A stretch of DNA of 22,896 nt, from positions 1 to 22,896 of IMG/VR virus record IMGVR_UViG_3300010318_000058, one strand, 5' to 3'. The position numbers and the translations under genes were made by a program. Below, piece after piece: positions 10,283-12,742 of this stretch. The stretch comes from a virus. Position 1 is the stretch's first letter; each line of letters opens with the position of its first letter. The notes under the pieces were generated by a model that was not told the DNA's origin, did not search any database, and was given only the letters and a program-made list of their open reading frames with translations.

Positions 10283-10891
10283 ATGGCATTCTGGGATAAA
10301 CACAACTTTGAACCAAAAAGAGCTTTTAGATGGAAAGTAGAAGTTCTTTCATTTACCGATGCAGAGGGCGAAATAACAGATTCGCATGTAAGTTCTTTTT
10401 TGGCTAAAAAAGTAACAAAACCGTCAATAACTATTCAAGAAGCAGAACACAAGCATTTGAATAAAAGTTATTATTTCCCAGGACATGTTAGTTGGGAGAC
10501 TGTAACTGTCACAGTTGTAGACACAAATGATGGAGAAGTAGTTAGATCGATTGCTGGTGCCTTAAGACATGCTGGATATGATTTTATGGATAATGGTATT
10601 ATAAACAAAGGGATTAATACAAATTCCGCACTAGGAGACGCAGCAAGAACTTTAGGAAAAGGAAATATGGTAGACGGTACCGGTACCCACGCGCAAAAAA
10701 GAGTAAGAATAACTCAGTTAGACTCTGCGGGTATTCCTGTAGAGACTATTATTCTACATAATGCTTGGATCAAAAGTTTTAAACCAAGCGAGCTTTCGTA
10801 TGATACTGAAGATTTGTCTACCTATGATATAGAATTGAGGTATGATTGGGCTTCTTTTGCTGTAGGTGAGGAAGCGGGAAAAGTTATCTAG
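10283..10891 (+). CDS. 19: Tail tube protein, gp19-like
   Basis: 202 residues (T4 gp19 is 163). It directly follows the sheath, as gene 19 follows 18 in T4. The N-terminus NFEPKRAFRWKVEV and the C-terminal ILHNAWIKSFKPSELSYDTE then TYDIELRYDWA fit the tube fold, in which a beta sandwich forms the inner barrel. The segment VSWETVTVTVVDTND near residue 72 matches the tube-family 'W..v.vt..D' pattern. Residues 110-135 hold a Gly/Thr-rich loop that could be the inter-ring loop. It stacks as hexamers inside the sheath. The ribosome site CAGGAG is 9-10 bases before the ATG. A related copy follows immediately. Confidence 0.88.
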   Translation: MAFWDKHNFEPKRAFRWKVEVLSFTDAEGEITDSHVSSFLAKKVTKPSITIQEAEHKHLNKSYYFPGHVSWETVTVTVVDTNDGEVVRSIAGALRHAGYDFMDNGIINKGINTNSALGDAARTLGKGNMVDGTGTHAQKRVRITQLDSAGIPVETIILHNAWIKSFKPSELSYDTEDLSTYDIELRYDWASFAVGEEAGKVI

Positions 10892-10900
10892 GATTTATAA

Positions 10901-11638
10901 ATGTCTAGTGATTCTTCAAAAATTAATGGTTCAAAATTTTCTTTTGATCTTTCGAACTCCAGATTTGAACCAAAGAGAAGTTTCAGGTGGAGACTAGAAT
11001 TTGATAACTTAATAAATCATATTCCTCCACAATATATCGTAAGCGTTTCAAGACCTTCTATAACATGGGAACAACGCACTGAAAATCTTATCGGCGCAGT
11101 AGAATATATTTCTTCAGCGCCTCCTCAAAAATCTCCAATAGAAATAGTGTGTATTGACGATGAACAAAATCTGGTAGGTAACTGGCTTCATTATTATCTA
11201 GCAGTTTCTGGTATTGATACGTCTTATTTTAATTCTTATGATACTACTTCTGGTATGTATATAGAAAAAACAAGAAATATAGAAATATTCATGTTAAATG
11301 AGCTTGGATATGATATAGAGTCTCTTGAGCTTCAAAATGCGTGGATATCTGCTATAAAACATTCAGATTTATCATATTCAGAAACTGGTTTTGCAACTTA
11401 CTCTATAACAATATCTTATAATGGCTATAAATATAAAGTTTCTTCCGAGAGTTCTGTAATAGCTGGAAGCACAGACTATGAAAAATTAAAAACAAAATCA
11501 GATAAACCTTTAATTCCCATAGATACTAAAAAAAATGAGATTTATCATGGTCGTAGTAAACGAAAAATTGCGTCTGGAGTTCCAAGTACGCCTAGTAGTT
11601 CTTCGCCAGGTGGATATAAAAAGCCAAAAGTTTCATAA
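10901..11638 (+). CDS. Second tube-fold protein (gp19 paralogue, possible tube initiator or terminator)
   Basis: 245 residues, only 9 bases after the tube gene. It shares the tube hallmarks at both ends: RFEPKRSFRWRLEF near residue 21 (tube gene: NFEPKRAFRWKVEV) and LQNAWISAIKHSDLSYSETG then YSITISY (tube gene: LHNAWIKSFKPSELSYDTED then YDIELRY). It is thus a diverged tandem duplicate. The middle differs, and a basic Ser/Pro/Lys-rich tail of about 50 residues (ending SSSSPGGYKKPKVS) is unique to it. In T4, gp48 and gp54 adopt the same fold and start the tube on the baseplate, and gp3 ends it, so a capping role is plausible. Which end it caps cannot be decided here. A late-promoter-like TATAAATG covers its start codon but is too close to be used. 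Confidence 0.75.
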   Translation: MSSDSSKINGSKFSFDLSNSRFEPKRSFRWRLEFDNLINHIPPQYIVSVSRPSITWEQRTENLIGAVEYISSAPPQKSPIEIVCIDDEQNLVGNWLHYYLAVSGIDTSYFNSYDTTSGMYIEKTRNIEIFMLNELGYDIESLELQNAWISAIKHSDLSYSETGFATYSITISYNGYKYKVSSESSVIAGSTDYEKLKTKSDKPLIPIDTKKNEIYHGRSKRKIASGVPSTPSSSSPGGYKKPKVS

Positions 11639-11695: not shown

Positions 11696-12514
11696 ATGAG
11701 AGATAATCAAGAACGTTTTAGCGTCATGACTGATGACGTTTCCGCATCCGTTTCTTCAAATGCGTTAAGTTTTGTTTCTCCGACAGAACTAGTTTCCCTC
11801 CCTTCGAAGGGGAAATATTATTCACAGAACCACCCACTTCATGGGAAAGAAGAAATAGAAATAAAGTATATGACAGCAAAAGAAGAAGATATACTTAGTA
11901 ATAAATCACTTTTGAAAAAAGGTGTTGCAATAGATAGAATGTTACAAAGTTTAATAGTAGATAAGTCTATTAAGTTAGAATCTTTATTGATAGGAGACAA
12001 AAATGCTATTCTAATAGCAGCGAGGATTTCTGCTTATGGTCCAGAATATGCTTCTCAAGTTACATGCCCTCAATGCGAAACAAGACAAAAGTTTGAATTT
12101 GATCTTTCTGATTTAAGCGAGAAAGAGTGTTCTTCTTTAGAAGAGAATGATGCTATTTTAAATGAAAAAGGAAATTTTGTTTTCAAATTACCAAGATCTC
12201 AAGTAGATGTAGAAATAAAAACAATGACAGTTGGAGATGAAGCAAAGGTTACCCAGGAGCTTATGAAGAAAAAAGACATCTCTTATATAGAACAAATGAA
12301 AACAATTGTTCTCTCTGCTAATGGAGAAACAGATAAAACTTTAATCTCGTCTTTTGTGGAAAACTTAATTGCTTCAGACGCAAGACATATCAGAAAAGTG
12401 ATGTCTGCGCTTTTACCAGACATAGATATGACTCAAACATTTCTATGCTCTTCATGCGATTATGAAGAAGAAATGGAGGTTCCGTTGACAGCGGAATTTT
12501 TTTGGCCTAAATGA
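11696..12514 (+). CDS. 26: gp26-type baseplate hub / tail assembly chaperone-like protein
   Basis: 272 residues, matching as I recall it the T4 baseplate family (gp26 type): LPSKGKYYSQNHPLHGKEEI at residues 35-54, IKYMTAKEEDILSNKSLLKK, AIDRMLQSLIVDKSI, and LLIGDKNAILIAARISAYGP. Two CxxC pairs (Cys124/127 in CPQC, Cys251/254 in CSSC) probably bind one zinc ion. The ribosome site is AAAGGA. The gene ends AEFFWPK with TGA, and a T7 run sits three codons before the stop. It stands two genes before the tape measure, the place held by tail assembly chaperones (lambda G/GT, P2 E/E') in other long-tailed phages. The family role in T4 is baseplate hub assembly. A frameshifted extension of 60 residues is possible; see the site at 12497. 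Confidence 0.82.
   Translation: MRDNQERFSVMTDDVSASVSSNALSFVSPTELVSLPSKGKYYSQNHPLHGKEEIEIKYMTAKEEDILSNKSLLKKGVAIDRMLQSLIVDKSIKLESLLIGDKNAILIAARISAYGPEYASQVTCPQCETRQKFEFDLSDLSEKECSSLEENDAILNEKGNFVFKLPRSQVDVEIKTMTVGDEAKVTQELMKKKDISYIEQMKTIVLSANGETDKTLISSFVENLIASDARHIRKVMSALLPDIDMTQTFLCSSCDYEEEMEVPLTAEFFWPK
12497..12503 (+). other. Candidate frameshift site (T7 run) joining the gp26-like gene to the downstream ORF
   Basis: In the gp26-like frame the codons are GAA TTT TTT TGG CCT AAA TGA. A +1 slip of Phe-tRNA on TTT TTT T re-pairs perfectly with TTT. It then reads GGC CTA AAT GAT GAT TAT into the frame of the 54-residue ORF with no intervening stop, giving a fusion of about 329 residues. A -2 shift or transcriptional slippage on the T run would reach the same frame. 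The downstream ORF has no ribosome site of its own. This is an inference; no frameshift has been shown. Confidence 0.4.
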
Positions 12515-12521
12515 TGATTAT

Positions 12522-12686
12522 ATGCATAATGTTTATGAGCAATTTTTTGCATTAAAATATCATGGAGGATGGAGTTTCATAGAAAGCTACAATCTCCCAG
12601 TTCAGTTGAGGGAATGGTTTTTGAAACGTCTTATTCGACAGAAAAAAGAAGAAAGTGAACAAATAAAAGCTGCTTATAAAAAATAA
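12522..12686 (+). CDS. Small conserved ORF upstream of the tape measure (possible chaperone extension)
   Basis: 54 residues from ATG 12522: MHNVYEQFFALKYHGGWSFI, then ESYNLPVQLREWFLKRLIRQ and a Lys/Glu helix ending AAYKK. The 'YHGGWSF.E.YNLP..LR.WF..RL' core is a dense, clearly protein-like pattern that I associate with short ORFs following gp26-like genes in marine T4-like phages. The ATG at 12522 is the first in frame, but no purine-rich ribosome site precedes it. Expression therefore requires coupling at the ATGATGA overlap or frameshifting from the upstream gene at the T7 run. Position directly before the tape measure, net charge and length recall the T domain of lambda GT, which recruits tail tube subunits to the tape measure. 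Its stop is followed by a terminator. Confidence 0.7.
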   Translation: MHNVYEQFFALKYHGGWSFIESYNLPVQLREWFLKRLIRQKKEESEQIKAAYKK

Positions 12687-12700
12687 ACTAAATATATTTC

Positions 12701-12735
12701 AAAAAGCAAGGATACACATATTCTTGCTTTTTTTT
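12701..12735 (+). terminator. Rho-independent terminator
   Basis: Fourteen-pair stem AAAAAGCAAGGATA / TATTCTTGCTTTTT (one G-T pair) with a CACA loop, then more T to 12735. The A-tract on the 5' side could make it work in both directions. It separates the chaperone-like pair from the tape measure gene, so the latter needs its own promoter or read-through. Confidence 0.85.
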
Positions 12736-12742
12736 ATTTAAA

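Follow-up and report, generated by a model that had tools for sequence, protein, structure and literature searches.

In phage lambda, the tail assembly chaperones (TACs) gpG and gpGT are related by a -1 frameshift (Xu, Hendrix and Duda 2004, 2013; summarised in PMC5009743). T4 was still listed as an exception in 2016 (PMC5009743); its gp26 and gp51 have been assigned as the short and long TAC by Vladimirov et al. (2022, Virology 566:9-15), as that work is cited in PMC10885494 and PMC12846349. Some T4-like phages have separate genes for the short and the long TAC (PMC10885494), and poly-T -1 signals have been reported in T4-like TAC-N genes (cited in PMC12846349), with GTTTTT in TAC genes of the Vandenendeviridae and Andersonviridae; both the TAC identity of gp26/gp51 and frameshifting in T4-like phages are already known. 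Elsewhere, forward TAC shifts are known; the set used to train PRFect includes 350 forward cases (PMC10885494). In phage 0305phi8-36, two domain-sharing proteins, gp143 and gp144, stand in for G and GT, but without a frameshift and, by description, from a different protein family (PMC2147016).

The locus at 11696-12686 of the window (the whole 22,896-nucleotide stretch analysed here, a 22.9-kb viral contig) is very probably, as judged by comparison with its relatives, a frameshifted TAC gene of a T4-related contractile-tailed phage, with TAC-N as the short form and TAC-NC as the long form arising via a +1 shift on a run of seven T (T7; Table 1). Upstream of it the contig encodes a major head protein, a head-tail adaptor, a sheath and two tail tube genes, in the order sheath (7366), tail tube (10283 and 10901), TAC and probable tape measure (12783). 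Two ORFs lie between the tail tube and tape measure genes, as in loci of the lambda G/GT type, and the second is in another frame, open across the first stop and joined at a slippery site; the differences are that lambda shifts -1 and the window locus +1, and that the window TAC-N is larger than lambda gpG and carries CxxC pairs. The TAC-N product matches PF12322 with an E value of 1.2e-18 (68.1 bits against a curated cut-off of 24.5) and also matches PHROG 150 (baseplate hub). The two tail tube (gp19-like) paralogues adjoin each other at 10283-10891 and 10901-11638, are 24% identical and represent a duplicated tube gene.

Table 1. Features of the TAC locus and the adjacent tape measure gene in the window.
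Feature	Position	Strand	Remarks
TAC-N, gp26-like gene, 272 aa, zero frame	11696..12514	+	PF12322 T4_baseplate, PHROG 150
GGAGG Shine-Dalgarno-like element, 22 nt upstream of T7	12475..12479	+	candidate pausing/stimulatory element
T7 slip site, zero frame TTT TTT T(GG)	12497..12503	+	proposed +1 re-pairing of Phe-tRNA from TTT to TTT
TAC-C, 60 aa (GLNDDYMHNVYEQFF...KK)	12504..12686	+	conserved +1 domain, stop 12684-12686
54-aa ORF of the first-pass annotation	12522..12686	+	ATG within first predicted TAC-C helix, not conserved
Terminator-like hairpin with T-rich tail	12701..12742	+	stem of 14 pairs, 3 G-C, then TTTATTTAAA
Probable tape measure protein gene, 902 aa	12783..15491	+	position, length, weak Mel-JY01 similarity

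The first-pass annotation had proposed that a gp26-like gene is fused by a +1 slip to a 54-residue ORF that has no ribosome site and lies just upstream of the tape measure gene. Its placing of T7 and its reading of the gene end are correct: the gene closes with GAA TTT TTT TGG CCT AAA TGA, in which T7 comprises codons 268 and 269 and the first base of TGG. From 12504 the +1 frame reads GGC CTA AAT GAT GAT TAT (GLNDDY), continues as MHNVYEQFF... and, as claimed, is free of stops, up to a TAA. The missing ribosome site is borne out as well, since no Shine-Dalgarno core was found in the window at normal distance before ATG 12522. The order of the genes is as described, but 96 non-coding bases, with the hairpin (itself 12701-12732) among them, separate the second ORF from the tape measure ATG. 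The hairpin is called terminator-like by consensus match only; from its place between TAC-C and the tape measure gene it may lower expression of the tape measure relative to the chaperone. The probable tape measure product is weakly similar (E 2e-5) to the gene at the same place in Mel-JY01 and shows no similarity to the annotated tape measure of immuto.

We propose that most ribosomes would reach the stop codon of the gp26-like gene and yield the 272-aa TAC-N. In a minority, the Phe-tRNA in the P site would move from codon 269 TTT to the overlapping TTT, with TGG in the A site, and these ribosomes would add the 60 residues of TAC-C to residues 1-269, giving a TAC-NC of about 329 aa. By analogy with lambda G/GT, the expected role of TAC-N is to coat the tape measure protein, and that of TAC-C to recruit subunits of the tail tube. 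The efficiency of the slip, the ratio of the two proteins and their binding partners, like the slip itself, are what we infer from the comparisons below.

Relatives were collected by tblastn against named phages, which gave 30 records, and 12 loci were inspected in detail. The small domain lies in the +1 frame in L002, Mel-JY01, immuto, SP-15, GXN1, LIS04 and BRock, and in the -1 frame in L007, XacN1, Atu_ph07, PA5oct and RAS14. Another 160 loci came from two IMG/VR scans; an IMG/VR search with the window protein as single query returned no match, and a search with the XacN1/RAS14 pair returned no loci with which to extend the -1 set. The longest alternative frame is +1 in 164 of the 171 loci with a readable end, the median open length past the stop being 64 aa in the +1 frame and 11 aa in the other alternative frame. 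For L134 and L163 an assignment to -1 from ORF length was rejected: both alternative frames are open there, and the conserved domain is in +1. After inspection the main set comprised 166 +1 loci (window included), all sharing frame offset and layout, and five -1 loci. The extension is likewise +1 at four loci from bacterial metagenome bins, of which two bear names (Saprospiraceae and Winogradskyella). Clustering at <80% identity left 115 representatives. In a widened set, 220 loci were classified by domain profile as 201 +1 and 19 -1; its phages include those of Microcystis, Flavobacterium, Bacillus, Listeria, Streptococcus, Streptomyces, Pseudomonas, Agrobacterium, Stenotrophomonas and Xanthomonas, and the arrangement is kept down to about 20-30% protein identity.

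The slip site itself is under strong constraint. TTTTTTTGG is present in 100 of the 115 representatives, and within the +1 group 143 of 166 loci carry exactly TTTTTTTGGCCT. The ratio of observed to expected synonymous variation falls to 0.20 at codon 268, 0.09 at codon 269 and 0.05 at codon 271, the lowest among 269 columns (gene median 0.97); CCT is kept at codon 271 because Leu (CTN) is needed in the +1 frame. TGG, the codon in the A site, is neither a stop nor clearly rare. Downstream mRNA structure was not seen as a stimulator in the window (z +0.58), and in the relatives it has little support, their mean z being barely lower than that of the control (-0.57 against -0.31).

T7 in the window, taken by itself, permits a +1 or a -2 shift. 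A -2 slip, known for phage Mu, would give the same offset with one more Phe: a tRNA positioned on TTT at 12500-12502 can pair again at 12498-12500, and a GGAGG at long spacing upstream might pull the ribosome back. The variant sites of the relatives, however, are explained by +1 alone, as the first-pass annotation had favoured. TTC TTT, TTT CTT and TTT C retain +1 re-pairing, and most of these break the -2 slip or the T homopolymer. At TTC TTT TGG (L037, L039, L082), TTC TTT CGT (L006), CTG TTT CGC (L010) and AAC TTT CTA (L002), all without the T7 homopolymer, +1 re-pairing (TTT to TTY) is available but no good -2 re-pairing, and TTT CTT matches the CUU-U (CUU-to-UUU) slip of RF2. By parsimony the window would thus shift +1, and we consider a -2 slip unlikely. 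With RF2 (prfB) the proposed +1 slip has in common the forward movement of the P-site tRNA, and relatives with TTT CTT TGG share the CUU-U re-pairing; in RF2, however, the A site holds a stop codon and a Shine-Dalgarno sequence lies 3 nt upstream, whereas the window has TGG in the A site and a GGAGG 17 nt before the T run, and its site is not of the RF2 type.

TAC-C carries its own evidence of translation in the +1 frame. Over the first 44 +1 codons, differences between close relatives number 4418, 2987 and 12418 at codon positions 1, 2 and 3, a pattern by which TAC-C is under coding selection in that frame. Its first two residues, GL, lie upstream of any start codon and are invariant in 27 aligned relatives. 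A structure model of TAC-C shows three helices (pLDDT 84.6), and the first (H4-20) begins before Met 12522. The second ORF had been drawn as 54 residues from this Met; the ATG is there, but the conserved part starts at the slip (GL). A separate 54-aa gene expressed by re-initiation at this ATG, which lies just 8 nt past the TAC-N TGA, would agree with the small separate ORFs that annotators of other phages call here. Such an ATG is not conserved, however: of the 115 representatives, 37 have any ATG within the first 22 codons of the extension, and 1 has a start codon preceded by a Shine-Dalgarno core for the second ORF (85 for TAC-N itself). Initiation there would cut the first helix, would leave conserved codons upstream, and would give no reason for the constraint on T7, TGG and CCT. 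We regard a separate gene as very unlikely, and some re-initiation may occur besides frameshifting. The +1 slip proposed earlier as the fusion mechanism is supported by the conserved offset and the site constraint, and the comparisons suggested with it (T run, frame offset and missing ribosome site of the second ORF in relatives) all came out in its favour.

In GenBank records the extension is called a hypothetical gene, either separate or truncated, or is unannotated (L003 2890-3970, L004 3720-3943, L005 3747-3946 and L009 after 3666). The long chaperone form is without annotation in the relatives, the small ORFs being missed or called separate hypothetical genes.

In 75 of the 115 representatives a GGAGG precedes the T run by 12-36 nt, the expectation from synonymous shuffling being 20.8 (at most 30 in 300 shuffles); it stands at -22 in 50 and at -28 in 17, and is nearly absent from the rest of the TAC-N gene. 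In L015-L174 and the window it is within the coding region, 17-27 nt before the T run, and in the window it ends 17 nt before T7. Known stimulatory Shine-Dalgarno spacings are 3 nt in RF2 and about 10 nt in dnaX. The spacing seen here is unlike either; we suggest the element as a candidate pause site. As an initiation site of a second protein the GGAGG was rejected, the usual start positions downstream of it being without a conserved start codon.

The direction of the shift varies with the codon phase of the T run. With A TTT TTT and its extension in +1, the window site does not have the form of a canonical -1 site (X XXY YYZ), and the known poly-T -1 TAC genes, which also have poly-T at the 3' end of TAC-N, differ in codon phase and shift in the opposite direction. 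A T before TTT TTT is found at 0 of 103 +1-group sites, where 34% would be expected from third-base T (p 1.4e-19). Asp before TTT is encoded by GAC in 48 of 48 cases in the +1 group, against 71% GAT elsewhere in these genes, and the two loci alone that have GAT there both have TTC next. In the widened set T TTT TTY occurs in 18 of 19 -1 loci (among them L007, L008 and L011-L013, all PF12322 relatives) but in 3 of 201 +1 loci, an association with direction that has a Fisher p of 3e-18 at 80% clustering and 0.007 at 35%. The three +1 loci with T TTT TTY (L182, L198, L199) are exceptions to the phase rule, and the -1 locus L219 is without a TTT TTY pair. The +1 loci L203, L206, L207, L208, L212 and L213 are also without this pair and end in TTA TTY AAT CCC AGT or CTA TTC AAT CCC AGT; AAT CCC A in this sub-lineage is possibly another +1 site, of the CCC-A type.

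We put forward tentatively, with not quite an even chance of being right, that direction depends largely on the codon phase in which the T run lies (forward at V TTT TTT T or TTT C, backward at T TTT TTY; V, non-T), that there was at least one switch of mode with the same C-terminal domain throughout, and that the large forward clade also makes use of a Shine-Dalgarno element placed 17-27 nt upstream, a distance that fits neither of the known stimulatory geometries. Two direction changes are needed on the tree built here, a number that depends on the tree since its branches are long. The same protein junction would be reached via +1 or -1 on near-identical T-rich letters, which makes the determinant of direction directly testable.

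Codon phase also bears on transcriptional slippage, by which T7 would give rise to a mixed mRNA population. Most loci do have the seven-base homopolymer. Seven bases, however, are short for slippage of this kind, loci with T3CT3, T2CT4 or TTTC keep the frame without the homopolymer, the constraint tracks codon phase and not run length, and an extra 5' T is avoided, all of which leaves transcriptional slippage a very improbable source of the longer product. That an open frame stands beside the T run by chance, in an AT-rich window where T runs are common, is refuted by the comparative data (distant conservation, +1-frame coding selection and site constraint) and has a negligible probability, an accidental frame being rejected because +1 is the longest alternative frame in all but a few loci.

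The structure model of TAC-N (pLDDT 89.9) is consistent with a TAC fold, though the matches are weak. Its first Foldseek match in the PDB is the HK97 tail assembly chaperone 2ob9, a weak one (E 0.69, prob 0.69). VIA-align gives modest Z values of 5.2 for YqbN (3klu), 4.5 for 3fgx and 4.2 for 2ob9, the next row being unrelated at Z 2.8, with no competing fold. We take YqbN 3klu and 3fgx to be XkdN-type chaperones. T4 gp26 (208 aa) and gp51 (249 aa) both match PF12322, and gp51 amounts to a gp26-like protein extended by a tail of about 45 residues. TAC-C of +1 loci and TAC-C of -1 loci are related to each other (HHalign probability 95.7). Their relatedness to the gp51 C-terminus is weaker: each scores better than 100 of 100 column shuffles (23.8 and 26.9 against shuffle maxima of 15.8 and 14.7), with an absolute probability of only 30-66. 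Against T4 gp26, HHalign found no match for TAC-C of either group. Since TAC-C matches the gp51 tail and not gp26, gp26 corresponds to TAC-N and gp51 to TAC-NC; together with the HK97 TAC among the three best folds, the gp51-like tail makes the locus a very probable TAC-N/TAC-NC pair. The link from the gp26 family to general tail chaperones that the first-pass annotation had expected is supported in this way, although for T4 it is not new, having been published by Vladimirov et al. (2022), as cited in later papers.

In T4 the short and long forms are two divergent paralogous genes, whereas the window and its relatives have one gene with a frameshift and no separate genes for the two forms; the window TAC is also directly upstream of the tape measure gene, unlike T4 gp26/gp51. 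The gp26/gp51 pair thus has one-gene frameshift counterparts in a large, mostly uncultivated clade, so that the two-gene form of T4 fits a later duplication or split. What appears to be new is the forward (+1) direction within this clade, along with its dependence on the phase of the T run and the conserved upstream GGAGG; no report of these three was found in the literature searched, in which Vladimirov et al. (2022) is represented through the papers citing it.

Two minor observations concern gene arrangement. In RB43 (L175 2501-3794) and Klebsiella phage RCIP0002 (L179 2501-3795), gp51 and gp26 stand in tandem, overlapping by a few bases, which is consistent with duplication. In the window, a 393-aa ORF at 20428-21609 matches the C-terminal part alone of phage DNA polymerase I (PHROG 17, 964-1236/1445), and the 5' part of that gene may lie in the neighbouring ORFs.
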